From the NCBI RefSeq assembly GCF_900109345.1, contig NZ_FNZN01000001.1, positions 69,883-133,882 on the forward strand: a stretch of DNA of 64,000 nucleotides. Direction: 5' to 3'. This document shows, piece after piece, positions 33,815 to 62,039 of this stretch (its first letter is position 1; each line of letters opens with the position of its first letter). The position numbers were made by a program, and so were the translations under genes. This DNA comes from Maribacter orientalis. GTDB lineage: Bacteria; Bacteroidota; Bacteroidia; Flavobacteriales; Flavobacteriaceae. The notes below the pieces were generated by a model, which had not been told where the DNA came from, did no database searches, and saw nothing but the letters and a program-made list of their open reading frames with translations.

Positions 33815-33851
33815 TAGTTTAGCGAGAGCGACTTACAAATGATTTTAATCA
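33815..33851 (-). promoter_or_regulatory. FNR-like box and -7 element for helical protein A
   Basis: TGATTTTAATCA at 33840-33851 (TGAT-N4-ATCA), centre 33845.5. On the minus strand the -7 element TAGCTTTC starts at 33816, exactly 29.5 bp from the box centre, placing the box at about -41.5. Confidence 0.7.
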
Positions 33852-33927
33852 GTATTGTCATTCATCTCTACTGTTTGGTTTGCTCTTTTCACTAATAATG
33901 GTATTCATTATTTTAAGTATTTACCCA

Positions 33928-33970
33928 TGATGTAAATCATTTTATTCTTTGCCCAGCATACCTACTTTTA
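33928..33970 (+). promoter_or_regulatory. FNR-like box and -7 element for helical protein B
   Basis: TGATGTAAATCA at 33928-33939, centre 33933.5; TACTTTTA begins at 33963, 29.5 bp away. The surrounding CATACCTACTTTTA closely matches CATACCTCTAGTTTTA in front of atpD at the same spacing. Confidence 0.72.
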
Positions 33971-33996
33971 GATTTCAAATGTAAATTATAGTGCAA

Positions 33997-34446
33997 ATGA
34001 GCGACTTTAGATATAGGCCAAAAGGCAAATACATTTACGATGCAGATTGGCAGGGAATTTACATATTAACAGAACATTGGAAGAACGATCTTGAATTTTA
34101 TAGAGACGATTTAAGATTCTTACAACATCTTATTGACAAATATTTTATTTGGATGACCCAAAAGGAAAATTTGGATGAAGTAAGGGACATTGAAACAGAT
34201 TTGATAGAGATTGATCGCAAATGTTATCAGTTACTGAAAAAAACCAACAAACACCTTACTAATCTTGCCGATTTAATTGATGACCCATTTAAATACGATT
34301 CACATAAATTTAGAACCGAGCATGAAGAATTGGAGGATAGTATTGCCGATTTCGTAAAATCATTCAGATCTAACCGCAAAAAGGTGTTCGCAATAACCGA
34401 ACATGTAATGGACAGTGAAAAGTTGAACCGTTTGTTAAAAGCCTAA
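33997..34446 (+). CDS. small helical protein, paralogous family member B
   Basis: 149 aa from the ATG at 33997; a GTG two codons upstream is the alternative. Same pattern as its paralogues: TEHWKNDLEFYRDDLRFLQHLI, then a coiled coil (LLKKTNKHLTNLADLIDD), KYDSHKFRTEHEEL and a final basic helix (FVKSFRSNRKKVFAITEHVM). Divergent from member A, with an FNR-like box on each side of the divergence. Followed after 11 bp by the 74-aa gene. Histidine-rich positions in the third helix could bind metal, but this is conjecture. Confidence 0.75.
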   Translation: MSDFRYRPKGKYIYDADWQGIYILTEHWKNDLEFYRDDLRFLQHLIDKYFIWMTQKENLDEVRDIETDLIEIDRKCYQLLKKTNKHLTNLADLIDDPFKYDSHKFRTEHEELEDSIADFVKSFRSNRKKVFAITEHVMDSEKLNRLLKA

Positions 34447-34457
34447 AAGAAAAAAAT

Positions 34458-34682
34458 ATGCCACAGATTATGGATGAACTTTCGAAGATATTTACGGAAA
34501 TTACAGAATTGACCTATGAAATTGAAAAGGAATATCCGGAAATTTATAAGTTTTTGGAAGAGGATCCTATAACCATTCCCAATATGGCCCATCCAAATAC
34601 CGATGAAAAAGTGATGCAAGCCTACCTAGATGATTTAAAGCAGTTGGTAAGACGGTATAAAGAAACCCATGAGAGCAATTGA
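34458..34682 (+). CDS. 74-aa acidic helical protein of unknown function
   Basis: Acidic, all-helical, with LTYEIEKEYPEIYKFLEEDP followed by ITIPNMAHPNTDEKV and a C-terminal helix LDDLKQLVRRYKETHES. The EYPExYKFLxEDPxTIP wording recurs, as I recall, in short hypothetical proteins of Bacteroidetes, but no function is attached. Eleven bp after member B of the helical family, so one operon under the same FNR-like box. Confidence 0.65.
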   Translation: MPQIMDELSKIFTEITELTYEIEKEYPEIYKFLEEDPITIPNMAHPNTDEKVMQAYLDDLKQLVRRYKETHESN

Positions 34683-34863
34683 TTTTTCTATCATGAATGC
34701 TTTGATCTTATTTATAGATTTATGTAGAAAAAGGGCCGCCTTTTCACTGAATAAAATAAGAAAGCATATAGTGTTTAAAACTAATTTTATGATAATAAAA
34801 AATTTCACCTCACATGAAAGTCCTCAAGAGGCTATTGAAGATGCAAATAAAGGGATTTAAGAA

Positions 34864-35010
34864 ATGAAGAAAGATAAGTATGGGGTCAAGCAAATAACCC
34901 AGTCAGAATCTTCATACTTTAATACCATTCTAGAATCTAAGGAATTTCATTTTACGCGAACAATTCTCTTAGAGAAAGAGTATGTTCTTTCGACATTAAA
35001 AGTAAAATGA
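34864..35010 (+). CDS. possible 48-aa peptide
   Basis: Frame beginning MKKDKYGVKQITQSESS and ending STLKVK. It is positioned after the 74-aa gene and stops 7 bp before the convergent gene. No family recognised and no paralogue in the window; may be a chance frame. Confidence 0.25.
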   Translation: MKKDKYGVKQITQSESSYFNTILESKEFHFTRTILLEKEYVLSTLKVK

Positions 35011-35017
35011 GACGTTT

Positions 35018-35440
35018 TCAAATTTCGTCAGGTTTTTTATGCTTTCTCATAACTGTTATTGCATAATCAAAAATTTCAGATTTCAGCTTCCTATAATCTT
35101 CTGAAGTCTTTTGAACCAATACATTTATATCATCATGCTCTATATAAAAACTAGAGTCTCCGAAATGATCTATAGAATCCATTATGCCACCTATACTTGC
35201 TTCATGCCCATCAATTTGAACTTTTAGATTATTTTTCGCAAATTTTATTTCGTCTAACTGTTTAAGGTATTTATGATAACGCTCATAAAGTTCTGCGGTA
35301 TCTGGCTCAAAATGGTAAGAGTGTAATAGATGTTCCAAAAAGATAATTTCCTCTTCCATGAAAAGTATAATAGATTTCCATTCAAGACTTTGTTCATGAA
35401 GGCGATCCATCATCATTTGGTGATTAGTTTTTTTTTTCAT
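35018..35440 (-). CDS. small helical protein, paralogous family member C
   Basis: 140 aa from the ATG at 35440 (MKKKTNHQMMMDRL). Other starts at 35446 (ATG) and 35473 (TTG) exist, but the predicted transcription start near 35455 excludes the TTG. Pattern: SLEWKSIILFMEEEIIFLEHLL, coiled-coil middle (LKQLDEIKFAKNNLKVQ), GHEASIGGIMD, SSFYIEHDDI and a final helix KLKSEIFDYAITVMRKH. Closest in spacing to the other three members. FNR-like box upstream. Function unknown. Confidence 0.72.
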   Translation of the reverse strand: MKKKTNHQMMMDRLHEQSLEWKSIILFMEEEIIFLEHLLHSYHFEPDTAELYERYHKYLKQLDEIKFAKNNLKVQIDGHEASIGGIMDSIDHFGDSSFYIEHDDINVLVQKTSEDYRKLKSEIFDYAITVMRKHKKPDEI

Positions 35441-35460
35441 AATCATATTGTTAGCACTCT

Positions 35461-35502
35461 TAAAATAGGGCAATTTTGGAATTTCGAAAATGATTTACAT
35501 CA
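35461..35502 (-). promoter_or_regulatory. FNR-like box and -7 element for helical protein C
   Basis: TGATTTACATCA at 35491-35502, centre 35496.5; minus-strand TATTTTA starts at 35467, again 29.5 bp away. Predicted transcript start about 35455. Confidence 0.65.
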
Positions 35503-35588
35503 GAATATCATTTGATTATTCCAGAAAAGCTGTTGGCTTATTATATTTAGAAATGTTCAAATATGTTATGCTTGATTAATCAAAAATT

Positions 35589-36488
35589 TCAACTTTTCAT
35601 CCTGACATCCATCAAAGGAAACTTAAGTAACTGAAGGGTTGAAGAAGCGATGCTTACCTTTCCTTTGGTCTCCAGAATCGATTTCTCGATATTTTCGAAA
35701 AGTTCATGTTTTGTAACCCTCCTCCGTTTATAATCCGTGATATATCGCAGGTTGAGTTCAATCCAATTGTCGGTTAGTTTTATTGCTATTGTTGGATCCA
35801 ATGTCGCATCTTCGATATAGTACCGTTTTACCATTTCTTTCCATGTTTCCTTGGAATTTTCAATGTAATCTGATAAATGATCTATCGCAACATGGAGAAT
35901 TATTTTCTTTGCCAGTTCAACATCCGATTCATAAGTTATTGGAATGTTTAGTTCATCCCAAACAAAAGGAAAATCCATTGAATAGTTTTTGATGGGGCCC
36001 TTGAACACGAAGGCATTACTGATTTTGACGATTCTACCGGAATAATTATCGCTGCTTACCCATTCGCCCATTTCCATAATCGTGGTGTACATACTGTTTA
36101 TGTCGATCACATCTCCTTTTATACCATTAATTTCGATACGATCTCCAGGCTTGTAAACCCTTAAAGCAAAAATATAGAAAGATCCAGCGACACTTAAGAT
36201 AAGCTCTTGCAATGTAAACGCGATACCAGCGGTAAAAAGCCCTATGATGACCGTGTAGTCTTTCAAATTGTCTAGCGTAAATGATAAAAGAATAATAAGG
36301 ACAATCAAAAAAATACCGACCATTTCTATCATTTTTTGAATCTTGTATCGATAGGCTATATCAGCTATTCTCCGTTTTACCAGTTTTCGAAGAAACATGA
36401 TTAAAATTCCAATGATGACAATCCACAGGGTTGTCCTCATGATTTTGATTATCGTTGGATCTTTTAATAAATCTGTTAGTGTTTGCAT
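35589..36488 (-). CDS. MscS-family mechanosensitive channel
   Basis: 299 aa. Two to three transmembrane helices, then the pore-lining helix and the MscS beta domain (TVIIGLFTAGIAFTLQELIL, VAGSFYIFAL, YKPGDRIEINGIKGDVIDIN, and the conserved N in VKISNAFVFKGPIKNYS). It opens under membrane tension to release solutes during hypo-osmotic shock. Starts 13 bp downstream of the degraded universal-stress gene and is probably transcribed with it from the FNR-like promoter at 36944-36985. Confidence 0.88.
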   Translation of the reverse strand: MQTLTDLLKDPTIIKIMRTTLWIVIIGILIMFLRKLVKRRIADIAYRYKIQKMIEMVGIFLIVLIILLSFTLDNLKDYTVIIGLFTAGIAFTLQELILSVAGSFYIFALRVYKPGDRIEINGIKGDVIDINSMYTTIMEMGEWVSSDNYSGRIVKISNAFVFKGPIKNYSMDFPFVWDELNIPITYESDVELAKKIILHVAIDHLSDYIENSKETWKEMVKRYYIEDATLDPTIAIKLTDNWIELNLRYITDYKRRRVTKHELFENIEKSILETKGKVSIASSTLQLLKFPLMDVRMKS

Positions 36489-36501
36489 ATTATGTTGGTT
36501 A

Positions 36502-36921
36502 TTAAGAAATCGAAATTTCCAGAACAGGAATAATTGAATGCCTATCTAATTCCCTAAGTAAAGGCTTTGACAATCTATTACCAAAAAAATGCGTTCTCCT
36601 GTTCATGAATATGACCATATCGCTTTCTCTACTTTCAAATACAAGAAATAGTTTTATTGGTGTGTTTTGGGTTTGGTGATAAAGCTCAAAAGTGTCTTTC
36701 AATCTATCAAGGCTTCCTTCGGAGATTGTTTTGGTATTTTTATGTTCTATTGTACCCAACTCCTCGATCATCATAAAATCACATTCAGAATATCCATCTA
36801 CTTGAAAACCATTAAAAAAATAAAAACCACACTTTTTGTCATTATACAACTTAAAGACTTATTCTGTAGCGTTCCGTATATCTTTAGAAGAATCGGTGGG
36901 TATTAGAATTCACTTTTCCAT
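36502..36921 (-). pseudogene. universal stress protein (UspA-like), two nonsense codons and internal deletion
   Basis: From the ATG at 36921 the frame reads MEK-stop-ILIPTDSSKDIRNATE-stop-VFKLYNDKKCGFYFFNGF. This aligns with the start of the intact neighbour (MEKRIVLPTDFSNNALNAIE, YAIDLHKNQKCVFYILNAF). The remaining ~95 codons align with that neighbour's last ~80 residues (LVVFLDEKSNYLGNELPKFL versus MVIFMNRRTHFFGNRLSKPL), so roughly 150 middle codons are gone. The part from 36849 down is an open 115-codon frame that may still be translated. The promoter box upstream survives and now drives mscS. Confidence 0.8.
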
Positions 36922-36943
36922 AATTCTGATTGTTTCATTTTGT

Positions 36944-36985
36944 GAATTTAGAGCCCTTGGGCCACTTGCACCATGACAATTATCA
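36944..36985 (-). promoter_or_regulatory. FNR-like box (one mismatch) and -7 element before the broken usp gene and mscS
   Basis: TGACAATTATCA at 36974-36985 (TGAC instead of TGAT), centre 36979.5; minus-strand TAAATTC starts at 36950, 29.5 bp away. Confidence 0.55.
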
Positions 36986-37925: not shown

Positions 37926-37943
37926 AGTTTCATAGTCTTGAAA

Positions 37944-37985
37944 CAAAATTAGAAAGTGCCTATCATTTGCCTATGATTAAAATCA
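37944..37985 (-). promoter_or_regulatory. FNR-like box and perfect -7 element for the usp gene
   Basis: TGATTAAAATCA at 37974-37985, centre 37979.5; minus-strand TAATTTTG (perfect TAnnTTTG) starts at 37951, 28.5 bp away. Predicted transcript start about 37939. Confidence 0.72.
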
Positions 37986-39162: not shown

Positions 39163-40233
39163 TTATTTGAGTACCATTGCCGCATAATATGCGGCCCCTA
39201 GAAGTGCAGTTTTTTCGTTTAAGATTACTTTTACCGGAATCATTTGTAAAAGAGAGTTCATACGTGCGGATTGCACAAAATTGCCATAGAAGATTTCTCG
39301 GTTTATCCCTTTTATAATTTTTGGCATAATGCCTCCACCTATATAAATTCCTCCCGTGGCTTTAAATTTCAGGGCCAATTGTGCAGATTCTATAGCTAAG
39401 AACCGAATAAAAAGTTCCAAAGTCTCCACACATACCGGATCGCCGTTTTTGAGAGCAACTTGGGTTATTGTTGCCGATGCATCTTCCTTAATCATTTTTT
39501 CCTCAAGCCATTGGGGCTCTTTCTCTTCGCTAACACGTCTAATCAATTGATATATATCATAAATCCCTGGGCCGGAAATTAGACGTTCCCAACTCACATG
39601 CCCATATTTTTGTTGAACATATTGCCATATTTCCATATCAGCTTCATTACGGGGACTAAAATCGCAATGACCTCCTTCTGTGGCAAAGGGATGATAGTGC
39701 GATCCATCCCAAAATAATCCGGCTTCGCCCAGACCGGTACCAGGTGAAATTATGGCAGCGTTGCCAGGTATTTTTGGTCCATATTTCAAGGTGTAGAAGT
39801 CCTTTTCGTGGAGTCCCGCTAGGCCGAAAGCATTGGCTTCCATGTCGTTTATAAGTGAAACGGACCTAATATGCAGTTCTCTGCCAATTTCCTCGCCATA
39901 GATTTCCCATGGAAAATTGGTTCCATGTACCTTACCTTGAGTTACCGGCCCTGCCACACCTAGGCATATTCCGTTCACTTTTGGTATGCCATCCTTATGA
40001 AATGCATGGAAAATATCCATAAATGATTTATATTTTTTGGTGGGATAGGATTTTTCTTTTAATAGGATTAGGACCCCGTTCTTGATTTGAAAAAGGGCCA
40101 AATTTGTTTTCGTACCACTTATATCACCAGCTAATACGACCCCTTTTTCATGGGACTTAGTGGTGTTCAAAAAAGCCAACGGTATTTGTCCTTTATGAAT
40201 AACAGGTAATGCAAGGCTTTCTGTCTTTTTCAT
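39163..40233 (-). CDS. glk: glucokinase
   Basis: 356 aa. ATP-binding VLAGDISGTKTNLALF, sugar-binding LGVAGPVTQGKVHGTNFPW and LINDMEANAFGL, SPGTGLGEAGLFW and EGGHCDFSPRNE, and the C-terminal GGIYIGGGIMPKI are those of the bacterial Glk (proteobacterial-type) family. Phosphorylates cytosolic glucose to glucose-6-phosphate with ATP. The ~30-residue N-terminal extension before the ATP site is longer than in E. coli Glk. Last gene of the ldhA-STAS-gpmA-sORF-fbaB-glk run, 12 bp after fbaB. Confidence 0.92.
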   Translation of the reverse strand: MKKTESLALPVIHKGQIPLAFLNTTKSHEKGVVLAGDISGTKTNLALFQIKNGVLILLKEKSYPTKKYKSFMDIFHAFHKDGIPKVNGICLGVAGPVTQGKVHGTNFPWEIYGEEIGRELHIRSVSLINDMEANAFGLAGLHEKDFYTLKYGPKIPGNAAIISPGTGLGEAGLFWDGSHYHPFATEGGHCDFSPRNEADMEIWQYVQQKYGHVSWERLISGPGIYDIYQLIRRVSEEKEPQWLEEKMIKEDASATITQVALKNGDPVCVETLELFIRFLAIESAQLALKFKATGGIYIGGGIMPKIIKGINREIFYGNFVQSARMNSLLQMIPVKVILNEKTALLGAAYYAAMVLK

Positions 40234-43849: not shown

Positions 43850-43892
43850 CAAAGGAAGTGAGTATAAACTATGCGAAGAATGATTTAAATCA
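43850..43892 (-). promoter_or_regulatory. FNR-like box and -7 element for the ldhA-glk operon
   Basis: TGATTTAAATCA at 43881-43892 inside the longer palindrome ATGATTTAAATCAT, centre 43886.5. Minus-strand TTCCTTTG starts at 43857, 29.5 bp away (one mismatch to TAnnTTTG). Predicted 39-nt leader. Confidence 0.7.
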
Positions 43893-44522: not shown

Positions 44523-46931
44523 TCAATTACTACTCTCTGCCATACCAAATACTACCTTGTGCCCCTCTGCAGTATTGATATTCTTGATTCCTGTAATCAA
44601 CGCATCTGGGTTAAAAGAAATGGAGTTAATCCCATTTTCTACCAGAAACTGCGCAAACTCAGGATAATCACTTGGTGCCTGTCCGCACAAACCGATTTTT
44701 GTATGGGTCTTATGCGCAGAAGCAATGACCATAGCAATCATTTTTTTGACCCCTAAATCGTTGATGTCGAAAATATCGCTTAGCAGCTCTGAATCTCTAT
44801 CTACTCCTAAAGTCAGCTGGGTAAGATCGTTAGAGCCGATAGAGAAGCCATCGAAATATTGAGCAAATTCTTCTGCCAGAATTACGTTGTTGGGTATTTC
44901 GGTCATCATATAAAGCTGTAATCCGTTTTCTCCCCTTTTCAATCCGTTTTCGGCCATCAAGTTCACTACTTTTTCGGCTTCTTTAATGGTACGACAAAAG
45001 GGAATCATAATTTTTACATTGTCGAAGCCCATGTCTTCCCTCACCATTTTCATTGCCTTACATTCCAACTCAAAAGCTTCTTGGTATCTTGAATGATAGT
45101 AACGAGAAGCACCGCGAAAACCGATCATAGGGTTGCTCTCCACAGGTTCAAATTCAGTGCCACCAATCAAATTAGCGTATTCGTTGGATTTAAAATCACT
45201 GGTACGAACGATGACATCTTTAGGATAGAAAGCCGCTGCAATAGTTGCTACCCCTTCGGCTAGCTTATGCACAAAATAATCGGCCTTGTCGGGGTAATGG
45301 TGGGTCAGTTTTTCGATTTCTTTTTTGGTCGAAGCATCTTTTAAGGTTTCAAAATGCCTTAAGGCCATAGGATGTATCTGTATGGAATTATTAATCACAA
45401 ATTCCAATCGCATTAACCCGACACCCTCGGCAGGATAAAACGATAGTTTGAATGCTTGATCCGGGTCTGCCAAAATAAGCATGGGTTGTGTTTCAGGTTT
45501 TTTAAGGAATTTGGTATCGACCTCATTCTCCTCCCATTTTAATATTCCGTCATATACTATGCCTGTATCACCATCGGCACAGGAAATCGTAATCTCTTGT
45601 CCATCTTTGATAGTTTTAGTTGCATTTACAGATCCCACAATGGCCGCTACACCAACTTCACGGGCCACAATGGCCGCATGACTGGTACGCCCACCCTGAT
45701 CCGTAATAATTCCTGCCGCTTTTTTAAGGATGGGATCCCAATCGGGATCGGTCTTTTCAGTTACCAAAATTTCTCCTGGTTGCAGTTTATCGGACTCTTT
45801 CGGACTATGTAGTATTCTTGCTTTTCCAGCGGATATTTTGTTACCCAGTCCCATTCCCCTTGTAATTTCCTTACCTTTTTCCCGTAATTTAAAGGTTGTG
45901 ATTTTAAGTTTGTCCTTTATTGCACTCTGTACTGTCTCTGGTCTTGCTTGAACAATGAAGAGTTCGTTGAGAATACCATCTTTCGCCCATTCGATATCCA
46001 TGGGACGTCCATAATGCTCTTCAATTATGATTGACCATTCGGCAAGTTTTACTACTTCTGAATCGGTCAATACGAATTGTTCTTGTTTCTCTTTTTTGGT
46101 ATCAAGGTTAACGGTACCGCTACCCGAAGAATCATAGATCATCGTTTTTTCCTTGCTTCCCAGTTTTCGTGAAATGATTGGTTGCCGAATTCCCTTTTTC
46201 AAACTGGGTTTGAAAACGAAGTATTCATCAGGATTGATACTTCCCTGAACAATATTCTCTCCCAAGCCCCAAATGCTAGAAACTAGAACCACTTTATCAA
46301 AACCGGTATCGGGATCCAAAGTAAAGTTTACGCCCGAGGCGGCAAGATCGGAACGTACCATCAATTGTATGCCAATAGAAAGTGCCACTTTGGTCTGGTC
46401 GAAATGATTGTCTTCCCGGTATTTTATGGCTCTATCGGTAAACAGCGAGGCATAACATTTATGGCAAGCCGCAATCAATTCATCAAATCCCTTTACGTTG
46501 AGATAGGTCTCTTGTTGTCCTGCAAAACTAGCGTTCGGTAGGTCTTCAGCAGTGGCACTACTGCGGACCGCCAAGGAAACATCCTTTCCGTACTTTTTTA
46601 CTAAAGCATCATATCCTTTTTCTACGGACATTTTAATAGATTGGGGGAATCGCGCTTGTGCAATGGTATTCCTTATCGAAGTCCCAATTTTTCGTAAATT
46701 GGAAAAATCTTTTTTATCCAGGTTTTCGAGTTCATTGAAGATTTTATCCTTGATTTTTGCCTCCTCCAAAAAAAGCCAATAAGCGTCAGAAGTGGTAGCA
46801 AAACCATCTGGAACCTGAACGCCCTTTGAGGTCAGTTTTTGGAACATTTCGCCCAAAGAAGCGTTTTTACCACCTACTTTGGGAACATCGTGTATATCTA
46901 TTTCGTTAAAGTATTTGATGTAATTTTTCAT
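44523..46931 (-). CDS. ppsA: phosphoenolpyruvate synthase
   Basis: 802 aa from the ATG at 46931 (MKNYIKYFNEIDIHDVPKVG), the usual family start; an ATG 33 bp upstream would leave only a ~6-nt leader from the predicted promoter. ATP-grasp domain at 1-340 (VGGKNASLGEMFQKL, SLAVRSSATAEDLPNASFAG), swivelling phosphohistidine domain (GGRTSHAAIVAREVGVAAI) and PEP-binding barrel (GVGLMRLEFVI, FSIGSNDLTQLTLGVDRDS, KIGLCGQAPSDYPEFA). Converts pyruvate and ATP to PEP, AMP and Pi. Divergent from the atp operon with one shared box. Confidence 0.95.
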   Translation of the reverse strand: MKNYIKYFNEIDIHDVPKVGGKNASLGEMFQKLTSKGVQVPDGFATTSDAYWLFLEEAKIKDKIFNELENLDKKDFSNLRKIGTSIRNTIAQARFPQSIKMSVEKGYDALVKKYGKDVSLAVRSSATAEDLPNASFAGQQETYLNVKGFDELIAACHKCYASLFTDRAIKYREDNHFDQTKVALSIGIQLMVRSDLAASGVNFTLDPDTGFDKVVLVSSIWGLGENIVQGSINPDEYFVFKPSLKKGIRQPIISRKLGSKEKTMIYDSSGSGTVNLDTKKEKQEQFVLTDSEVVKLAEWSIIIEEHYGRPMDIEWAKDGILNELFIVQARPETVQSAIKDKLKITTFKLREKGKEITRGMGLGNKISAGKARILHSPKESDKLQPGEILVTEKTDPDWDPILKKAAGIITDQGGRTSHAAIVAREVGVAAIVGSVNATKTIKDGQEITISCADGDTGIVYDGILKWEENEVDTKFLKKPETQPMLILADPDQAFKLSFYPAEGVGLMRLEFVINNSIQIHPMALRHFETLKDASTKKEIEKLTHHYPDKADYFVHKLAEGVATIAAAFYPKDVIVRTSDFKSNEYANLIGGTEFEPVESNPMIGFRGASRYYHSRYQEAFELECKAMKMVREDMGFDNVKIMIPFCRTIKEAEKVVNLMAENGLKRGENGLQLYMMTEIPNNVILAEEFAQYFDGFSIGSNDLTQLTLGVDRDSELLSDIFDINDLGVKKMIAMVIASAHKTHTKIGLCGQAPSDYPEFAQFLVENGINSISFNPDALITGIKNINTAEGHKVVFGMAESSN

Positions 46932-46974
46932 AACAGAATGTTTGTGGATACTATTATCATTCATAGTACAGCGA

Positions 46975-47048
46975 CAAATATCTATTCGCTCAACGCTTTT
47001 TGAAATGATTTAAATCATTTTAAGTCTTTTACCATACCTCTAGTTTTA
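46975..47048. promoter_or_regulatory. divergent FNR-like box serving ppsA and the N-ATPase operon
   Basis: Perfect 18-bp palindrome AAATGATTTAAATCATTT at 47003-47020 with core TGATTTAAATCA at 47006-47017, centre 47011.5. Rightward -7 TAGTTTTA starts at 47041 (29.5 bp); leftward GATATTTG starts at 46982 (29.5 bp, one mismatch). Both promoters would have the box near -41.5. Leaders are ~21 nt for atpD and ~39 nt for ppsA. Confidence 0.78.
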
Positions 47049-47058: not shown

Positions 47059-48546
<1,488 letters not shown>

Positions 48547-48552
48547 ATACCG

Positions 48553-48945
48553 ATGGATTTAAAAATTCTTCTTCCATACAAAGTTTTTATGAACAGCATC
48601 CGTGTAAATCGTGTAACGGTAGATACCAATGCGGGTTCTTATGGGTTTTTACCACAGCGTCTCGATTGTGTTGCGGCATTAGTACCGGGAATACTGACCT
48701 ACGAAACGGCAACTGGTGGTGTGTACTATGTCGCGATTGACGAGGGAGTATTGATAAAGACCGAAAACGAAATACAGGTTTCAGTTCGTAATGCAATTGG
48801 TGGTGCGGATCTCGGAAAACTTCGGGAAACTATCGAGAGAGAATTTAAAAACCTTGATGAAAATGAACGTATTGCACGCTCGGCAGTAGCAAAACTTGAA
48901 AGCGAATTTATTCAGAGCATAAAAAAGTTGCGTCAGGAACAATAA
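48553..48945 (+). CDS. atpC: N-type ATPase epsilon subunit
   Basis: 130 aa. N-terminal beta sandwich (YGFLPQRLDCVAALVPGILT, VYYVAIDEGVLIKTENEIQV) and a C-terminal helical hairpin (LRETIEREFKNLDENERIA). Central-stalk subunit. Second gene, 6 bp after atpD, as in other N-ATPase operons. Confidence 0.88.
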   Translation: MDLKILLPYKVFMNSIRVNRVTVDTNAGSYGFLPQRLDCVAALVPGILTYETATGGVYYVAIDEGVLIKTENEIQVSVRNAIGGADLGKLRETIEREFKNLDENERIARSAVAKLESEFIQSIKKLRQEQ

Positions 48946-48952
48946 TAAATCG

Positions 48953-49270
48953 ATGGAGATAAAAAATGAGGATACGTTCAAGCAGGAGGTAGGCCAAAAG
49001 GAAAAACAGAAGCTTAAAGCCCTCTATGAAAAAAAGCGGAGTGTTTGGGCAGGTTTGGGGACTTTCGGTATGGTAGGTTGGTCGGTTGCCGTGCCAACGG
49101 TTCTCGGAGCGGCCTTGGGTATGTGGTTGGATAAGTATTATCCAGAAACTATCTCTTGGACCCTAACCTTTTTGGTCGCAGGGTTATTTATTGGCTGCAT
49201 GATTGCATGGCAATGGGTAGCCAAGGAAAATAAAATGATGCATCAAGATAAAGAAGAAAAAAATGAATGA
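48953..49270 (+). CDS. atpQ: N-ATPase membrane protein AtpQ (AtpI-like)
   Basis: 105 aa, charged N-terminus then two transmembrane helices (WAGLGTFGMVGWSVAVPTVL, LTFLVAGLFIGCMIAW) of the AtpI/AtpQ type, joined by GAALGMWLDKYYP, the usual family linker. Accessory or assembly factor of the Fo part. Overlaps atpR by 8 bp. Confidence 0.8.
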   Translation: MEIKNEDTFKQEVGQKEKQKLKALYEKKRSVWAGLGTFGMVGWSVAVPTVLGAALGMWLDKYYPETISWTLTFLVAGLFIGCMIAWQWVAKENKMMHQDKEEKNE

Positions 49271-49565
49271 TTATCTATTTAGCGTTTTAGTGTTCATCGT
49301 GGGTTTAGCGTTAGGAACCCTATTTTTTGGTGGACTATGGCTTACCGTGAGAAAAGCGTTGACCTCTAAAAAACCAACTCTATGGTTTTTGGGAAGCCTG
49401 TTTCTAAGGGTAGGAATCACTATGTTGGGTTTTTACTACGTCGCAATGGGTGATTGGATCAACATGCTTATTTGTCTTCTAGGTTTTGTAATAGCCCGTT
49501 TTATGGTACTAAATTTTGCCAAAACAAAAGATAAAAAAGAAGTAGAACTAAAAAAGGAAAGCTGA
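49263..49565 (+). CDS. atpR: N-ATPase membrane protein AtpR
   Basis: 100 aa with three transmembrane helices (LVFIVGLALGTLFFGGLWLT, LWFLGSLFLRVGITMLGFYY, INMLICLLGFVIARFMV). The arginines R-V and A-R in the second and third helices follow the AtpR pattern proposed to contact the c ring. Found only in N-ATPase operons, so it confirms the type. Confidence 0.82.
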   Translation: MNDYLFSVLVFIVGLALGTLFFGGLWLTVRKALTSKKPTLWFLGSLFLRVGITMLGFYYVAMGDWINMLICLLGFVIARFMVLNFAKTKDKKEVELKKES

Positions 49566-49566
49566 T

Positions 49567-50268
49567 ATGGAACTTAGTCCTGATGAAACTATTTTTTGGG
49601 AACATGGTTTTATAACCATCAACCTTACCCTTGTTACAACATGGGTATTAATGCTTTTCCTGATAGTTACCTCGATATTGATTACAAGACGACTCAAAAC
49701 CGATATTCAGATTTCACGTTGGCAATGTGTACTTGAAATGCTGGTAACGGGCATGAACAAGCAGATCAAGGAAATAGGTTTAGAAAAACCCGAAAAATTT
49801 ATCGGGTTTATAGGAACCATGTTCATATTCATAGCATTCGCGAATCTGTGTATCATTTTCCCAGGATATATACCGCCTACCAGTTCATTATCGACGACAG
49901 CGGCACTAGCCATAAGCGTGTTTCTGGCCGTACCCATGTTTGGGATTGCGGAAAGTGGGATTTTGGGATATCTAAAAACATATGTGCAACCCACCTTCAT
50001 CATGCTGCCTTTTAATATTATCAGCGAGCTTTCACGTACACTTGCCTTGGCCGTGCGATTATTCGGTAATATTATGAGCGGTGGGTTGATCGTAACTATA
50101 CTTCTTAGCATTGCCCCCTTACTGTTTCCTGTACTAATGACCGTACTTGGCCTGATTACGGGCATCATTCAGGCCTATATTTTTAGCATTTTGGCGACAG
50201 TATACATCGCAGCTGCCACCCAAGAATCTGAATCAAAAAGAGTAAAACGAAAAAAAGTAATACAATAA
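49567..50268 (+). CDS. atpB: N-type ATPase a subunit
   Basis: 233 aa, five to six helices. Essential arginine in the motif SRTLALAVRLFGNIMSGGLI. Provides the two half-channels against the c ring. Starts 1 bp after atpR's stop. Confidence 0.92.
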   Translation: MELSPDETIFWEHGFITINLTLVTTWVLMLFLIVTSILITRRLKTDIQISRWQCVLEMLVTGMNKQIKEIGLEKPEKFIGFIGTMFIFIAFANLCIIFPGYIPPTSSLSTTAALAISVFLAVPMFGIAESGILGYLKTYVQPTFIMLPFNIISELSRTLALAVRLFGNIMSGGLIVTILLSIAPLLFPVLMTVLGLITGIIQAYIFSILATVYIAAATQESESKRVKRKKVIQ

Positions 50269-50280
50269 AAATAAATTATT

Positions 50281-50550
50281 ATGGATAATTCAACTATAAT
50301 CGCAATGGTCTCCATCATTACCGCTGGCGTAACCACTGGTATCGGGTGTATGATACCCGCATTGGGCCAAGGAAAATCTATTTCTACGGCCTTGAGTTCA
50401 ATGGCACAACAGCCAGATGCCGGGCAGACAATAACCCGTACGCTATTCGTAGGATTGGCGATGTTGGAGTCGCTTGCAATATATTGTTTCGTGATTTCGA
50501 TGATCCTCATTTTTGCTAACCCATTTTGGAACCATTTCATCGCTAAATAA
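50281..50550 (+). CDS. atpE: N-type ATPase c subunit with Na+-binding pattern
   Basis: 89 aa hairpin. First helix carries PALGQG with Q30; second carries MLESLAIYC with E63, S64 and Y68. In the Ilyobacter Na+ c ring the ligands are Gln32, Glu65, Ser66 and Tyr70, at the same relative spacing. So the rotor ring should bind Na+. Followed 8 bp later by atpF. Confidence 0.9.
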   Translation: MDNSTIIAMVSIITAGVTTGIGCMIPALGQGKSISTALSSMAQQPDAGQTITRTLFVGLAMLESLAIYCFVISMILIFANPFWNHFIAK

Positions 50551-50558
50551 GAGTTATA

Positions 50559-51341
50559 ATGAAAATAAATTGGTTCACATTAATAGCACAGATTATCAAC
50601 TTCCTCGTTTTAATGTGGTTGCTTAAGCGCTATTTATATAAGCCCATTTTAAATGCCATAGACGAACGGGAGAATAAAATCGTAGCCCAACTCAAGGATG
50701 CCGAAGCGAAAAAAGCCGAAGCGGAAAAAGAACGTAACGAATTCAAAAAAAAGAATGAAACCTTTGATAGGCAAAAGGGCGAACTTATGCAAAAGGCAAT
50801 TGAGGAAAGTAATGCGGAAGGCTTGAAAATCAAAGAAGAAGCTAGAAATGAAGCCAATGCATTAAAGGCTAAATTGGAAAAAAATATACAGGACAGCCAA
50901 GAAAATAGGAATCGTGAGATAGCCCAAAAGATTCAGCAAGAGGTGGTGACAATTACCAAAAAAACACTTACCGACCTTTCTTCGGCTAGTTTGGAAGAAC
51001 AATCCGTACTGACCTTTATCAAGAAAATCAATGAACTAAAAGAGGATGAAAAGCAAAAATTGATTTTGACCTTAACATCAAGAAAAAACCCCATTTTGGT
51101 AAAAAGCGCCTTCAAGTTATCGAATAAACAGCAAACCGAAATCCAGCAATCGATAAATGCCGTATTGGACGTGGAAAGCCAATTTCAGTTTAAAATAGCA
51201 CCAGAACTTATTATCGGAATAGAATTATCGGCTAATGGCTATAAACTATCGTGGAGTATCTCGGAATATATCAATTCTCTTGAGAAAAGTATGAATGACA
51301 GCGCAAAGGAAAATGTTAAAACTGCATTAGAAAAAGGATGA
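50559..51341 (+). CDS. atpF: N-type ATPase b subunit with delta-like C-terminal region
   Basis: 260 aa, about 100 longer than a standard b subunit. One N-terminal transmembrane helix ([20 protein letters not shown]), long coiled coil (residues ~35-130, [18 protein letters not shown]), then ~110 residues with [19 protein letters not shown] and [13 protein letters not shown]-ATPase operons lack a separate delta gene, and this extension probably does delta's job of binding the top of F1. Confidence 0.88.
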
Positions 51342-51342
51342 T

Positions 51343-52893
51343 ATGGGCCTAAAAAGAGATAAGGATTTCATTGAGCGTACATTCGACCAATTGGTTAAAG
51401 GACGTGAAAAGCACCACTTTTCCCTTTCCCCTCGAGAAGTAGGAATCGTTAGTAGTGTATCTTCTGGGGTGGTCAAGGTCTCCGGCCTGCCTAGTGCAGG
51501 ATTTGAAGAATTATTGAAGTTTCCTGGAGATTTGTACGGAATTGCCTTCAACATTGACGAACATGAGATAGGCGCAGTATTACTTGGAGAAGATTCATTA
51601 ATAAATGCTGGCGATGAAGTGGAGCGGACTGGTCGTGTAATGGATATTCCCGTTGGTAATGCGTTGATAGGGAGGGTTATAAATCCATTAGGGGAGCCCA
51701 TGGATGGGAAAAAGGCCATAGCTACTGATCAACGCTTACCTATTGAACGTTCTGCCACTGCGATAATGGATCGTTCTGCGGTTACCGTTCCCTTGCAGAC
51801 GGGACTAAAAGTGGTAGATGCGCTTATACCTATTGGTAGAGGGCAAAGGGAATTGATTTTAGGGGACCGCCAAACGGGTAAAACGGCCATTGCAGTAGAC
51901 ACCATCATCAACCAAAAAGATAAAAACGTACTCTGTATCTATTGTGCCATCGGGCAACGTGCCTCATCGGTGGCCAAAGTCATTGCTAATCTTAAGGAAA
52001 AGGGAGCCATGGAATACACCACTGTCATGGTTACCGAAGGAAATAATTCTCCTGGATTACAGTACATAGCACCTTATGCAGCCACAAGTATTGCAGAATA
52101 TTTTATGCATCAGGGCAGAGATGTGTTGATAGTATATGATGATCTGACGAACCATGCGAGGGCTTATCGCGAACTTTCATTGCTTTTGAGAAGACCCCCG
52201 GGAAGGGAGGCGTTTCCAGGGGATATTTTTTACATCCATTCCAGGTTATTGGAACGTTCTACACATCTAAATGATGCACTAGGAGGGGGGTCACTGACTG
52301 CTTTGCCTATTGTTGAGACCGAGGCACAAAATATATCTGCATACATCCCTACCAATTTAATCTCTATTACAGACGGACAGATTTATCTCTCTCCAAAATT
52401 ATTTGAATTGGGAATTTTACCAGCTGTTGATGTCGGGAAATCCGTTTCTAGGGTAGGGGGGAAAGCACAGTTGCCCGCATATCATTCCATAACCGGAAAT
52501 CTAAAGCTCGCCTATTCCCAATTTGAGGAATTGGAGACCTTTGCCCGCTTTGGTTCGCATTTGGATGAAAACACAAGAAAAATCATTGAACATGGTAAAC
52601 GAATCAGGGCCTGCTTGAAACAAAAGGAACTCCAGCCCATGTCCGCTCCTGAGCAAATAATAGTATTATTGGCCCTAATGGATGGCCTTTTTGATGGGGT
52701 GCCATTGGAGAAAATACAAATAGCGGAGACTGAATTACGTAAAATTATTGGGGAGCTCCCTGCCGATATGGTCAAACGCCTCAATTCAGCTACCGCATTG
52801 GAAACCTCCGATCGAGAATCCATTTTTAGCCGGGCGAAAAATATAATGATCTCTTTTGAGGCCAAATCTGAACCAATACCTGATAAGAACTAA
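51343..52893 (+). CDS. atpA: N-type ATPase alpha subunit
   Basis: 516 aa. P-loop [16 protein letters not shown], catalytic-interface arginine in [33 protein letters not shown] at the N-terminal barrel. Non-catalytic nucleotide-binding subunit. Its TAA stop overlaps the atpG ATG by one base (TAATG), so translation is coupled. Confidence 0.95.
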
Positions 52894-53789
52894 TGCGCAC
52901 TTTAGAAAGTTTAAAAAGAAAAATTGTAGGTGCGGGGGAGCTAAAGTCCATTGTACGTACCATGAAGGCCATGGCTGCAGCAAATATCGGGCAATATGAG
53001 TCAGCAGTCGGTTCTTTGGGCGATTATTATACTTCGATTTCCTTGGGTATTGTTGCTTATTTTAATGAGACGAACATCGGTCCTATTCTTGAAATTGAAA
53101 AACCTAAAGATAATAGTGAAAACTCAATTTGTGCAATAGTGTTTGGTTCGGACCAAGGATTTGTGGGGCAATTCAATGACACCCTTACCGAGTTTGTGTC
53201 CCAATCTCTTTTGGACCTTCCCGGCAAAAAGGAAGTGTGGACAGTAGGCGCAAGAATTCCACTGCTTTTGACGGATGTAGGCTTTAACGTTACCAAGAAT
53301 TTTCCATTACCGAATTCGATAGATGTGGTTACCTCGCTAATTGGTTCCATTTTGATAAATGTAGAAGAAAGTCATTCGAAAGGCACCCTTCATGAATTTT
53401 ATATTTTTCACAACCATGCGATACCAGATACGATGTATGGTCCAAAAAGTCAGAGACTGCTACCCTTAGACGAAAAATGGCGGCAAGAACTGACTACACT
53501 TCAATGGCCTTCCAAGAAAATACCTCAGGTCATAGGAAAAAATAAAAACATCTTAAAAGCCCTCCTTAGCGAATATCTATTCGTGACCTTGTTCAAAGCC
53601 TGCTCAGAATCCCTGGCCAGTGAAAATTATAGTCGTTTGGCGGCCATGCAACGGGCGGAAAAAAACATAGAAGAGCTATTGGATAATGTTAACCATGCCT
53701 ACCATCGTTTGCGACAAAGTTCTATCGATGAAGAACTTTTTGATGTGGTCTCGGGGTTCGAGGCTCTTAAAAATGGGAACGTTCATTAG
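52893..53789 (+). CDS. atpG: N-type ATPase gamma subunit
   Basis: 298 aa. N-terminal helix RTLESLKRKIVGAGELKSIV with RTMKAMAAANI, and C-terminal helix ASENYSRLAAMQRAEKNIEE form the rotor shaft. More diverged in the middle than housekeeping gamma, as usual for N-ATPases. Last gene of the operon; converges with the PNPOx-like genes. Confidence 0.9.
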   Translation: MRTLESLKRKIVGAGELKSIVRTMKAMAAANIGQYESAVGSLGDYYTSISLGIVAYFNETNIGPILEIEKPKDNSENSICAIVFGSDQGFVGQFNDTLTEFVSQSLLDLPGKKEVWTVGARIPLLLTDVGFNVTKNFPLPNSIDVVTSLIGSILINVEESHSKGTLHEFYIFHNHAIPDTMYGPKSQRLLPLDEKWRQELTTLQWPSKKIPQVIGKNKNILKALLSEYLFVTLFKACSESLASENYSRLAAMQRAEKNIEELLDNVNHAYHRLRQSSIDEELFDVVSGFEALKNGNVH

Positions 53790-58946: not shown

Positions 58947-60158
58947 TTAGGCTACCGATTGATAGGTTGATGATACTGTTTCTGCTGCATGGCCCCAAGT
59001 CAAATTTTGCAACGCTACCCTATTCAGACCTTTAACCATTTTGGCGAATGATTTGTGGTTGAGTAGCCCGTAGATGGCCTCGGAAAGGCTATTCGTATCC
59101 CAATAGTCCACGATAAAAGCATGAGGCAGCACTTCGGCAACTCCCGATTGTCTTGAAATAATTACTGGAATATTGGCCTGGATGGCCTCTAACGGTGCTA
59201 TACCAAATGGTTCCGATATGGAAGGCATAACAAAAACATCGGTCATGGCAAGCATGCGATCCACTTCACGGCCTTTTAAGAATCCAGTGAAATGAAAATG
59301 GGAAGACAATCTTTTGGCTGCTACAATTTTTATCATCTCTGTCATCAAATCTCCGTTACCGGCCATTACAAACCTTACGTTTTTGTCTTTTTTTAAGACC
59401 TTTTCAGCAGCCTCGATAAAATATTCAGGCCCTTTTTGGTAGGTTATTCTACCCAGAAAAGTGACTATTTTTTCTTTGAATCTAGAAGTATCAAGATTTT
59501 GAGATGTATCCTTTTGCTTAACACCATTATAGGTTGTAATTACTTTTTTGGCATCGATGTGGTATTTATCGATTATGATTTTTTTGGTAAGGTTGCTTAC
59601 CGCCATAACCTTGTCGGCAACTAACATGCCTTGCCGCTCAATTTCATAAATTTCGTGGTTGATCTTGGCCGAACGATCAAATGCTGTGGCATGTACATGC
59701 ACTACTAAAGGTTTGCGACTTATTTCTTTAGCAATGATCCCCGCAGGAAAGGTAAGCCAATCGTGGGCATGTATAATATCGAACTCAAGTTCTTTGGCCA
59801 GTTTTGAGATCACTACCGCCAACCAGTAAACTTCCTCAATTAAATTCGGTCCGTAGGCTCCAGAAAAATTATATTTGTCGCCACTTAAGTTGTGAATTTG
59901 TGTAGGATCAACATTGGGTATTAACTTTCTTAGTAAGGGGTAAGTAATTGAATCTTTTTTTTTAGGAAGTTCAACGTTGCTCGCACTTATCAACCGAAAT
60001 CGCTCCGATTGCATTTCTTCTACTGCTTTGGGTAATAGAAACAACACTTCATGGCCTTTCTTTAATAAACTTTCTACCAATCCTTGACAAGCGGTCGCCA
60101 ACCCTCCTGAGATATGGGGCGGATATTCCCAGCCTAACATTAATATTTTCATTTTCAT
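58947..60158 (-). CDS. glycosyltransferase (GT4/GT5-like, glycogen-synthase-type)
   Basis: 403 aa GT-B fold. N-terminal MLGWEYPPHISGGLATACQG is the start typical of glycogen/starch-synthase-like enzymes; IIHAHDWLTFPAGIIAKE and FLGRITYQKGPEYFIEAAEK follow, with the nucleotide-sugar E-x7-E in SISEPFGIAPLEA. Probably elongates alpha-glucan from an activated glucose. First gene of the operon with GH57 and glgP, preceded by an FNR-like box; synthesis and breakdown enzymes are thus co-expressed. A capsular or trehalose-type GT4 remains possible. Confidence 0.85.
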   Translation of the reverse strand: MKMKILMLGWEYPPHISGGLATACQGLVESLLKKGHEVLFLLPKAVEEMQSERFRLISASNVELPKKKDSITYPLLRKLIPNVDPTQIHNLSGDKYNFSGAYGPNLIEEVYWLAVVISKLAKELEFDIIHAHDWLTFPAGIIAKEISRKPLVVHVHATAFDRSAKINHEIYEIERQGMLVADKVMAVSNLTKKIIIDKYHIDAKKVITTYNGVKQKDTSQNLDTSRFKEKIVTFLGRITYQKGPEYFIEAAEKVLKKDKNVRFVMAGNGDLMTEMIKIVAAKRLSSHFHFTGFLKGREVDRMLAMTDVFVMPSISEPFGIAPLEAIQANIPVIISRQSGVAEVLPHAFIVDYWDTNSLSEAIYGLLNHKSFAKMVKGLNRVALQNLTWGHAAETVSSTYQSVA

Positions 60159-60180
60159 TGTTTTAAGTTCATGGGATGCT

Positions 60181-60222
60181 AAATGTAGAAAGGGGAAAAG
60201 GCTTTATGAATGATATAAATCA
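60181..60222 (-). promoter_or_regulatory. FNR-like box and -7 element for the glycogen operon
   Basis: TGATATAAATCA at 60211-60222 within AATGATATAAATCATT, centre 60216.5; minus-strand TACATTTA starts at 60187, 29.5 bp away. Predicted leader ~17 nt. Confidence 0.73.
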
Positions 60223-60388
60223 TTAGTTGAAAATATTCTTAAGAATTATGAAAATTTCGGGTTTATGTAAATTGTTTTTTGATAACCTATATAGCTCTAG
60301 TTAAGCGTTTGTTTTATTAAGGCCTTTAATATTTATAATTATCTGAATACGCCCCAGTTGAGTTTTTAACCTTTTAAATTTAACCGCT

Positions 60389-60762
60389 ATGCAGTATGAT
60401 AAAATTCTAATTATTGAGGATTATCGTACAATTATAGAAAACACAGTAGAATTTTTGGACTTGGAAGGGTATATACCCATGACCGCTACCAACCGAAAAA
60501 TGGGATTGGAGAAAGTATTTCAATTGGTACCCGATTTAATTCTCTGTGACTTGCTAATGCAAGAAATGGATGGCTTTGAGGTATTGAGGACCTTGGGTGA
60601 ACATCCGCATTACAAAACTATACCCTTTCTATTTTTTAGTGCAAAAACGGAAAAAAAGACAAACGAGGAGGAATTGATGCAGGGGCAATCGATTATATTG
60701 TGAAACCATTTGATTTAGATAACCTGGGACAAAAAATTGAACAGTGTCTAAAAGAATCGTAA
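60389..60762 (+). CDS. single-domain response regulator requiring a -1 frameshift
   Basis: Receiver domain: IEDYRT acidic pair, phospho-acceptor D54 (ILCDLLMQEMDGFEVL), FLFFSAKTEK with the conserved Ser/Thr. The 0-frame stops after 104 codons in an unrelated tail (EELMQGQSIIL). Shifting -1 at A_AAA_AAG (60652-60658) continues as DKRGGIDAGAIDYIVKPFDL to a stop at 60760-60762, restoring the conserved lysine of VKPFD and a normal ~124-aa length. Either programmed slippage, a recent indel in the A7 run, or a sequencing error. No output domain; a CheY-like relay. Divergent from the glycogen operon. Confidence 0.8.
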
Positions 60763-60776
60763 GCACCCGATGATAT

Positions 60777-61976
60777 CTAAAGATTCGGAGTAGATAAAAG
60801 CCTATTGCTGGGTTTACTTTCAATAAAAATCAAGAAATACAAAATCACCAAGATAGTGGCCAACCCTGTGATAATAAAAGCCGTGTTTGCACCAAATGCA
60901 TACCAAATAAGTCCTGCCAATGAGCTTGCAATCATAGTACAAATACTCTGAAACCCGGCGTACATTCCAATGGCTGTCGCCGTCTCTTTTTTATCTGTAA
61001 TATTACTGATCCACGCTTTGGATATACCTTCGTTGGTTGCGGCATATATTCCATATAAAAAGAACAGACTTGCCAAACCATAGGTATTAGTAATCAATCC
61101 CATGCCAAAATATACGATTGCAAATAAAGAAAGCCCGATTACGAACATTTTGCGCAACCCTATTCTATCGGCCATTGCTCCAATGGGAAATGAAAAAAGC
61201 GCATATACAAGATTGTAAAAAATATAGACGCCAATAACCGCACTGTCATTTAGTCCTGCTTGTTTGGCTTTCAACAACAAAAATACGTCCGAACTATTGA
61301 TTAGAGTAAATGCCAATAAGCCTATAACAACCTTGCGGTATATTAAAGGACTTGTTTTCCAATAGCTCAAGAAAGAAAAGAAGGGGCTCCATTTCTTTTC
61401 TCCTGTTATATTCACATTTTTATCTTTCAGAAGCAAGGATATCAGAACGGCACATACTCCAGGGAAAAATGCAATATAAAATAAGGTTACATAATCTTGC
61501 GGATAATAATATAGATACCATAATGCGAGCGAAGGTCCCAATACAGCTCCCAAAGTATCCATAGAACGGTGCAGGCCAAAAACTTTCCCTTTGGTTTTGG
61601 TGGTAGCCTCTTTTGATAATATGGCATCCCTTGCACCTGTCCGTATCCCTTTCCCAAAACGATCCAAGGTGCGGGTAAGGAAAATCCATAAGGGATAAAC
61701 GAAAAATGCCAACATGGGTTTTGAAATAGCACTTAGGGTATAACCTATTTGCACAAAAGGTGCCCTTTTACCCAAATCGTCTGATCGTTTACCGAAATAC
61801 CCTTTGCTGAGACCCGCGGTTGCCTCGGCGACCCCCTCTAAAATTCCAATCAAGACAATGGAAAATCCAATAGATTTCAGATAGATAGGCATTATTGGGT
61901 AGAGCATTTCACTAGCCATGTCAGTGAACAAGCTTATTAGAGATAAGGTCCAAACGGTCCGCGAAATATATTTCAT
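60777..61976 (-). CDS. major facilitator superfamily transporter
   Basis: 399 aa, 12 predicted transmembrane helices. SLFTDMASEMLYPIMPIYL at the start, the loop motif FGKRSDDLGKRAPF between helices 2 and 3, RFGKGIRTGARDAILSKEA and YGIYAATNEGISKAWISNI are typical of the group annotated as MFS drug/metabolite exporters. Substrate unknown; in this context an organic-acid exporter is conceivable. FNR-like box upstream. Confidence 0.87.
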   Translation of the reverse strand: MKYISRTVWTLSLISLFTDMASEMLYPIMPIYLKSIGFSIVLIGILEGVAEATAGLSKGYFGKRSDDLGKRAPFVQIGYTLSAISKPMLAFFVYPLWIFLTRTLDRFGKGIRTGARDAILSKEATTKTKGKVFGLHRSMDTLGAVLGPSLALWYLYYYPQDYVTLFYIAFFPGVCAVLISLLLKDKNVNITGEKKWSPFFSFLSYWKTSPLIYRKVVIGLLAFTLINSSDVFLLLKAKQAGLNDSAVIGVYIFYNLVYALFSFPIGAMADRIGLRKMFVIGLSLFAIVYFGMGLITNTYGLASLFFLYGIYAATNEGISKAWISNITDKKETATAIGMYAGFQSICTMIASSLAGLIWYAFGANTAFIITGLATILVILYFLIFIESKPSNRLLSTPNL

Positions 61977-61996
61977 GGCTTATAAATTTATGGAGT

Positions 61997-62039
61997 TAAA
62001 AATATCCTTTAAAAATCAAGATCATACTGACTTAAATCA
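61997..62039 (-). promoter_or_regulatory. FNR-like box (one mismatch) and -7 element for the MFS gene
   Basis: TGACTTAAATCA at 62028-62039, centre 62033.5; minus-strand TATTTTTA starts at 62004, 29.5 bp away. Predicted leader ~16 nt. Confidence 0.65.

Follow-up and report, generated by a model that had tools for sequence, protein, structure and literature searches.

A CRP/FNR-type palindrome at a fixed distance from the −7 element marks a probable low-oxygen or energy-stress regulon in Maribacter orientalis

Introduction

Within the CRP/FNR family of regulators, the E. coli-type FNR site is TTGAT-N4-ATCAA and the CRP site is TGTGA-N6-TCACA. The Burkholderia low-oxygen-activated (lxa) locus, a cluster associated with low oxygen, has 50 genes whose products include six universal stress proteins (USPs), one heat-shock and one BON protein (PMC6127331, PMC9104464). 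The Bacteroidota have promoters unlike those of the textbooks, and for this reason little is known of how their genes are regulated. Here we analyse a stretch of 64,000 nucleotides of the flavobacterium Maribacter orientalis (the window; positions 69,883 to 133,882 of contig NZ_FNZN01000001.1, assembly GCF_900109345.1) in which intergenic palindromes with the core TGAT-N4-ATCA (boxes) lie at a fixed distance upstream of a −7 promoter element. We describe this composite promoter, its recurrence in the rest of the genome and in relatives, and its candidate readers, namely an FNR-like protein (gene fnr) and two fusions of a receiver domain to a CRP-type protein (hybrids A and B).

Results

The box and the −7 element keep a single spacing

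All nine palindromes named in the original prediction are present: seven perfect copies of TGAT-N4-ATCA (starting at 33840, 33928, 35491, 37974, 43881, 47006 and 60211) and two with one mismatch (36974 and 62028). The box at 47006 has a −7 element on each side, as had been proposed, and serves both the phosphoenolpyruvate synthase gene ppsA and the N-ATPase operon. When written in the direction of the gene, the ten promoters can be aligned with a gap of just one base; TGAT and TCA never vary, and the −7 element has TT in ten of ten and both TA letters in eight of ten. The fixed spacing holds as predicted: 23 nt separate box and −7 element in nine of the ten promoters (29.5 from box centre to first letter), and 22 nt (28.5) in the usp promoter.

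We recounted the spacing in relatives' DNA fetched by protein similarity because the stretches of the own genome had been chosen by model hits. In these counts, from which the own genome was excluded, the number of oriented boxes with a −7 element matching at all five letters at spacer 23 was compared with the mean over spacers outside 22–24. Around 43 ppsA loci (244 oriented boxes) there were 28 such matches against a mean of 0.65; the corresponding figures were 23 against 0.30 for 21 hybrid-A loci (54 oriented boxes), 27 against 0.81 for 29 fnr loci (98 oriented boxes) and 13 against 0.22 for a set of 8 fnr loci (32 oriented boxes). When four of five letters were accepted, the counts at spacer 23 in the same four sets rose to 52, 26, 57 and 21; the means over other spacers were then 9.7, 3.4, 5.2 and 1.9, and single other spacers reached up to 21, 16, 14 and 9. 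This peak at spacer 23 in relatives' DNA is the strongest result of the analysis.

The own genome shows the peak too. Its stretches outside the window, picked by model hits, contain 146 TGAY-N4-RTCA boxes that are oriented and intergenic, and in 87 of them four or five of the five −7 letters are matched at spacer 23, where spacers outside 22–24 average 8.4; three rearranged control palindromes yielded only 2, 6 and 6 oriented intergenic sites in the same stretches. Inside the window, a −7-like element stands at spacer 23 behind 8 of the 16 perfect boxes that are oriented and intergenic, and the average for spacers outside 22–24 is 0.81.

The number of boxes in the window also exceeds expectation. 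Nine perfect TGAT-N4-ATCA cores were counted where 2.14 are expected, which agrees with the earlier estimate of about two by chance, and none of 100 shuffles reached nine. Two of the nine (at 5540 and 39548) are additional to those predicted and lack the geometry. A composite proper was defined as TGAY-N4-RTCA followed at spacer 23 by a −7 element with four or five of its five letters. The window holds 11 of these in oriented form: all but one of the ten promoters, and boxes 33840 and 62028 once more on their opposite strands. In 200 dinucleotide shuffles the mean was 0.30 and the maximum 3. The looser oriented box TGAY-N4-RTCA by itself lies within the shuffle range (26 in the window; shuffle mean 8.6, maximum 28).

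Predicted position of the box and start codons

Mapped transcription starts of Flavobacterium psychrophilum place TAnnTTTG at −12 to −5 (PMC9723704). With the first T at −12 and 29.5 bp between it and the box centre, the box would be centred at about −41.5. This class II geometry, put forward in the original prediction, fits an activator of the CRP/FNR family; the start positions are predicted here, carried over from those mapped in F. psychrophilum, which is another genus (PMC9723704).

The spacing had also been said to settle several start codons, and it does so in part. ATG 37925 of the usp gene and ATG 35446 of the open reading frame (ORF) beginning at 35018 are the better starts because the alternatives TTG 37946 and TTG 35473 lie upstream of the predicted +1 positions 37939 and 35455. 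For ppsA the claim is only plausible, not proven: ATG 46964 would leave a leader of only about 6 nt from the predicted start at 46970, and a later in-frame ATG is plausible from the sequence.

Spread over the genome and target genes

A sequence-only model of the ten window promoters (R1), run over the genome with 150 candidates scored, found beyond those ten 19 places at E ≤ 0.1, which represent 17 distinct boxes. Seventeen of the 19 places fall in C11:270-316 kb, C10:415-431 kb and C17:135-168 kb (C17 is the window's own contig); this clustering is descriptive only because the stretches were chosen after the model hits were known. Altogether we list 81 spacer-23 promoters with a downstream gene within 350 nt (17 of 98 oriented sites are omitted as having no such gene, and a box with two genes is counted twice). 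The regulon proposed for one island is real but not confined to it. Of the 81 promoters, 70 were counted elsewhere in the genome, and two stretches on other contigs account for 55 of the 70; the count covers those stretches in which the model had hits.

Genes outside the window are simple ORF calls, and their products were named by eye from sequence. USP-like genes stand behind 12 of the 81 promoters, and further outside targets include two Hsp20-like and three BON-like proteins as well as thioredoxin-like and ferritin-like ones. USP, Hsp20 and BON genes are clustered in the manner of the lxa locus, with Pfam backing for the window USP only and naming by eye for the rest. BLAST relatives in C11 were found for 9 of 25 C10 proteins and 14 of 62 C17 proteins, some by way of common signalling domains only.

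The site resembles the FNR site only in part

TGA, TCA, Y, R and the −7 letters were selection criteria for the 81 own-genome promoters; the flanking bases are free of selection. The base before TGA is A in 58%, C in 38% and G in 4%, with T in 0 of 81; the base after TCA is T in 90% and G in 10%, with A in 0 of 81. The consensus is (A/C)TGAY-N4-RTCA(T/g), of which the near-perfect ATGATTTAAATCAT is the AT-rich end. The site had been judged closer to that of FNR than to that of CRP. A partial likeness to the FNR site stands, but only a partial one, because the FNR site has T before TGA and the own sites never do. The strict FNR site is ruled out by these counts and by those in relatives, where T precedes TGA in 7 of 156 spacer-23 sites, and the consensus does not have the form TGTGA-N6-TCACA of the CRP site either. 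The promoter-proximal half-site is more regular than the distal one, as would be expected of an oriented class II site.

Candidate regulators

Four genes of the own genome match HTH_Crp_2 (L001–L004), and they include at least three candidate readers, two of which are predicted receiver-CRP fusions. The gene of the FNR-like protein (L003:1039-1734) diverges from that of a CcoI-like ATPase (identified by eye) and is followed by a USP gene; boxes precede both fnr and this USP gene. Hybrids B (L001) and A (L002) are fusions of receiver, cyclic-nucleotide-binding (cNMP) and helix-turn-helix (HTH) domains, each encoded directly behind a PAS histidine kinase gene. Both kinase-hybrid operons have an upstream box, about 340 nt from the kinase gene of B and with a weaker match to the −7 letters for A. 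The boxes before fnr and before both operons suggest feedback. The fourth gene (L004) encodes a different CRP-type protein. Outside the window, at G000:C11:278938-279460 (locus L035), is what is left of a third receiver-CRP hybrid, its frame broken by internal stops; before it come an ORF for a receiver alone and one for a PAS kinase similar to the hybrid A kinase.

Against the NCBIfam Fnr model the FNR-like protein scores 111.6 bits, below the cut-off of 228. It has four cysteines that are conserved without exception in the 30 best of 75 family matches (own genome included; loci L175–L204). Its best solved match is the pair of entries 5cvr/5e44, which we take to be the FNR of A. fischeri. Three of the four cysteines align with what we assume to be the cluster cysteines of that protein; the fourth FNR position is Asn and there is an extra invariant Cys 56. 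The four cluster cysteines of FNR are therefore not all in place, and it is possible, judging from the protein sequence, that those of the FNR-like protein hold an Fe-S cluster and serve as an oxygen sensor. The recognition helix reads E-S-L-I-R as against E-T-I-S-R in A. fischeri FNR, with Ile in place of Ser, and E-x-x-I-R is common to the FNR-like protein and hybrids A and B. For the PAS domain of the hybrid A kinase, the closest PDB matches are a multi-sensor kinase, FixL (7e-12) and DosP (7e-10). By sequence this protein has the make-up of a FixL-type PAS kinase, with a FixL-like PAS domain, HisKA and HATPase, and the heme histidine of FixL and DosP is aligned in it.

Composites accompany the regulators

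A family survey covered 120 genomes of 119 genera, with orthologue presence called by E-value cut-offs. Composites were counted with a second model (R2) built from 69 of the 81 promoters of the own genome (G000); the 12 dropped by hand scored four of five, others of that score being kept. High counts are lower bounds because only part of the candidates was scored (150 per genome in the genome and genus scans, 50 in the family survey). Family genomes with neither kind of regulator (n = 18) have 0–3 composites and a median of 0. FNR-like-only genomes (n = 42) have 0–23 with a median of 4, hybrid-only genomes (n = 27) 3–34 with a median of 10, and genomes with both (n = 33) 2–50, which is more than in the hybrid-only group (p about 0.006, uncorrected). 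Among 25 genomes of the genus, the ten with hybrid B have 27–96 composites and the fifteen without it 2–24 (exact Mann-Whitney p = 3e-7, or 8e-7 without G000, kinship being ignored). Two composites were counted in genome G006, which lacks both hybrids and whose sole CRP-type protein is a different one, and 14 in G007, with the FNR-like protein only. Each kind of regulator accompanies composites alone, and assignment to a single regulator by co-occurrence is therefore impossible. The proposition that hybrid B is required for large regulons holds in the genus and fails in the family, where 34 composites occur without a detected B.

Features of the window

Table 1. Boxes, promoters and principal genes of the window
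Feature	Position	Strand	−7 element	Predicted +1	Bits	Downstream gene or remark
Box	33840..33851	−	TAGCTTTC, first T 33816	33804	25.6	Gene 33381-33782, 133 aa helical protein
Box	33928..33939	+	TACTTTTA, first T 33963	33975	27.9	Gene 33997-34446
Box	35491..35502	−	TATTTTAA, first T 35467	35455		142 aa helical protein, ATG 35446
Box, one mismatch	36974..36985	−	TAAATTCA		18.6	Lowest score of the ten promoters
Box, spacer 22	37974..37985	−	TAATTTTG	37939		Universal stress protein, start ATG 37925
Box	43881..43892	−	TTCCTTTG			D-2-hydroxyacid (lactate-type) dehydrogenase 42817-43806
Box, two-way	47006..47017	.	GATATTTG (− strand); TAGTTTTA (+ strand)			− strand: ppsA 44523-46964; + strand: N-ATPase operon 47074-53789
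Box	60211..60222	−	TACATTTA			Glycosyltransferase (glycogen-synthase-like) 58947-60158, then GH57 57708-58934, phosphorylase 55170-57707
Box, one mismatch	62028..62039	−	TATTTTTA			MFS transporter 60777-61976
N-type ATPase operon	47074..53789	+				TIGR03305 829.8 bits (cut-off 752); AtpR
Phosphoenolpyruvate synthase (ppsA)	44523..46964	−				NF005057 and TIGR01418 above cut-off
Perfect box	5540..5551	.				Without properly spaced −7 element; excluded from regulon promoters
Perfect box	39548..39559	.				Within glucokinase coding sequence; probably a chance match

The short ORF downstream of box 36974 (36502-36774) has partial resemblance to USPs and is followed by an MscS gene (35589-36488); apparently this is a decayed USP gene (region 36502-36930, − strand) with a regulon promoter before it. 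On the same strand behind the D-2-hydroxyacid dehydrogenase gene are genes for SpoIIAA-like, histidine phosphatase, DeoC/LacD aldolase and glucokinase proteins. The N-ATPase operon combines the alternate F1F0 beta subunit with AtpR, as expected of this type. Box 62028 may have a second target in the + strand gene 62217-62624, given a −7-like CATTTTTA at spacer 23. Other window genes encode a NUDIX protein, a receiver protein and two pyridoxamine-oxidase-like proteins; the R1 model found no box at the last two.

The four small helical-looking proteins of the window (33381-33782, 33997-34446, 35018-35446 and 62217-62624) have no Pfam or NCBIfam match at cut-off, and each has a relative in the C11 stretch, one also in C10. 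The product of 33997-34446 has 149 aa, belongs to no Pfam family and has paralogues in both other islands. At 30121-30363 an 80-aa ORF matches only the C-terminal part of thiolase and is probably a fragment.

Discussion

We think it probable, on the sequence evidence, that the composite serves class II activation of a low-oxygen or low-energy survival regulon by the FNR-like protein together with the receiver-CRP hybrids. An activator of the CRP/FNR family would sit on boxes at −41.5 and recruit the flavobacterial RNA polymerase, activating rather than repressing some 80 or more promoters in a few genome stretches and at the regulator genes themselves. The target set (USPs, Hsp20-like and BON-like proteins, the N-ATPase, phosphoenolpyruvate synthase, a D-lactate-type dehydrogenase and enzymes of glycogen and glycolysis) points to survival at low oxygen or low energy, with oxygen as the likely signal, and the regulon is probably under control of low oxygen or energy stress. 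The likely readers would be the FNR-like protein with its four cysteines and the receiver-CRP fusions behind PAS kinases, one of them FixL/DosP-like. We put at about even a wider proposal: that the Flavobacteriaceae have a CRP/FNR-family code of their own at −41.5, read jointly by an FNR-like protein with rearranged cysteines and by receiver-CRP proteins, that this amounts to a collapsed FixL-FixJ-FixK cascade, and that gain of hybrid B goes with large dormancy-like islands.

Several observations weigh against this reading. The composite was found in only 7 of 43 ppsA loci, and two of the seven are weak; this count required TGAY-N4-RTCA at spacer 23 on the ppsA strand within 100 nt of the match start, and it used 43 of 80 loci (39 of 80 in another comparison), those omitted being mostly from other phyla. 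In Kriegella, the closest relative among the listed ppsA loci, the composite occurs only on the N-ATPase side. The fnr-side −7-like element stands at spacer 23 in only 10 of 30 family fnr promoters, whereas a TGA-N6-TCA box is present in 28 of the 30; the boxes without it may serve the divergent gene. Twelve of the 18 genomes with neither regulator are smaller than 3 Mb, the co-occurrence is uncorrected for descent or genome size, and the six of at least 3 Mb have 0–1 composites. Presence was called by E-value cut-offs, except that hybrid B in the genus was judged visually, on identity and the length of the frame. The hybrid-B-like frame of G012 lacks a receiver, five of the 25 genus genomes are 64–85% complete, and G000 served to train R2. 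In the family, as many as 34 composites occur in genomes where no hybrid B was detected, and by eye the hybrid B kinase has no obvious heme-PAS histidine. The comparison of orthologous promoters proposed earlier is mixed: all 7 fnr orthologues from the genus keep the box at spacer 23 (the eighth locus encodes a different protein), but the ppsA composite is seldom kept. In several other Bacteroidota, the neighbourhood of ppsA contains a CRP-type gene with 35–39% identity to hybrid A (L055, L056, L061, L064, L080, L084).

A possible alternative, which we hold only tentatively, makes the receiver-CRP hybrids the main readers, with the FNR-like protein sharing a few sites near itself and the CcoI-like gene. 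Composite numbers in the genus do track hybrid B without overlap, and the hybrid-only median lies above the FNR-like-only one (10 against 4). FNR-like-only genomes nevertheless reach 23 composites, and genomes with both regulators exceed the hybrid-only ones.

A classical FNR regulon, with the FNR-like protein as sole reader of FNR sites and other targets for the receiver-CRP proteins, seems improbable. It would suit the conserved fnr box of the genus and the excess of composites in FNR-like-only genomes over those with neither regulator. It would have to accommodate the 3–34 composites of 27 hybrid genomes without a detected FNR-like orthologue, the missing outer T in both the own genome and relatives, the Ile that replaces the A. 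fischeri FNR Ser in the recognition helix, and a score under the Fnr cut-off.

Slightly more doubtful still is a carbon or energy signal, conveyed by a CRP-type protein like the MalR-like ones of the Bacteroidota, instead of oxygen. Many targets are sugar and glycogen enzymes, and carbon sensing has been proposed for CRP/FNR homologues of the Flavobacteriales (PMC8510549). Opposed to it are the FixL/DosP-like PAS kinase, the cysteine-rich FNR-like protein, a half-site that is not TGTGA, and the resemblance of the gene set to a low-oxygen locus that encodes USPs together with heat-shock and BON proteins (PMC6127331).

That the spacing is an accident of AT-rich intergenic DNA, which does give chance boxes and TAnnTT (at least one of the 200 shuffles held 28 looser boxes), has practically no probability left: chance and base composition are ruled out by the 11 composites against a shuffle mean of 0.30 and by the single-spacer peak in both own and independently fetched DNA.

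A single-spacing composite that can be read from sequence yields predicted starts, target genes and candidate regulators for many promoters per genome, and it provides a case, open to testing, of a sensor kinase wired straight to a CRP/FNR-type DNA reader.

In the open-licence literature, with most subscription journals outside that scope, we recognized, among the papers listed, no description of the site, of receiver-CRP regulators in the Flavobacteriaceae or of the regulon. The kind of system, a class II regulon of the CRP/FNR family, is known, and the variant with its own site looks new within that literature. Like the E. coli-type FNR regulon, it has a CRP/FNR palindrome with a TGA/TCA core at the class II position, and FNR is the best solved match of the FNR-like candidate; unlike it, the sites lack the outer T, the helix is E-S-L-I-R, one cluster cysteine is missing and one added, and two receiver-CRP proteins stand beside the FNR-like one. 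With the Burkholderia lxa locus it has in common the USP, heat-shock and BON gene set, whereas the phylum is another and here there are one composite promoter, several genome stretches and receiver-CRP regulators. Myxococcus NmpRSTU likewise governs an oxygen-depletion regulon with USP and cbb3 oxidase, and differs by its NtrC-like regulator (PMC11841059). The MalR-like regulators of the Bacteroidota are also CRP/FNR-family proteins of the Flavobacteriales and differ by a predicted carbon response and other targets (PMC8510549). The FixL-FixJ-FixK cascade, mentioned in PMC9104464, has in common with the present system a FixL-type PAS kinase, a receiver domain and a CRP/FNR-type DNA reader; because here, unlike in that cascade, receiver and reader are fused, signalling from the kinase to the promoter would be shorter by one step.

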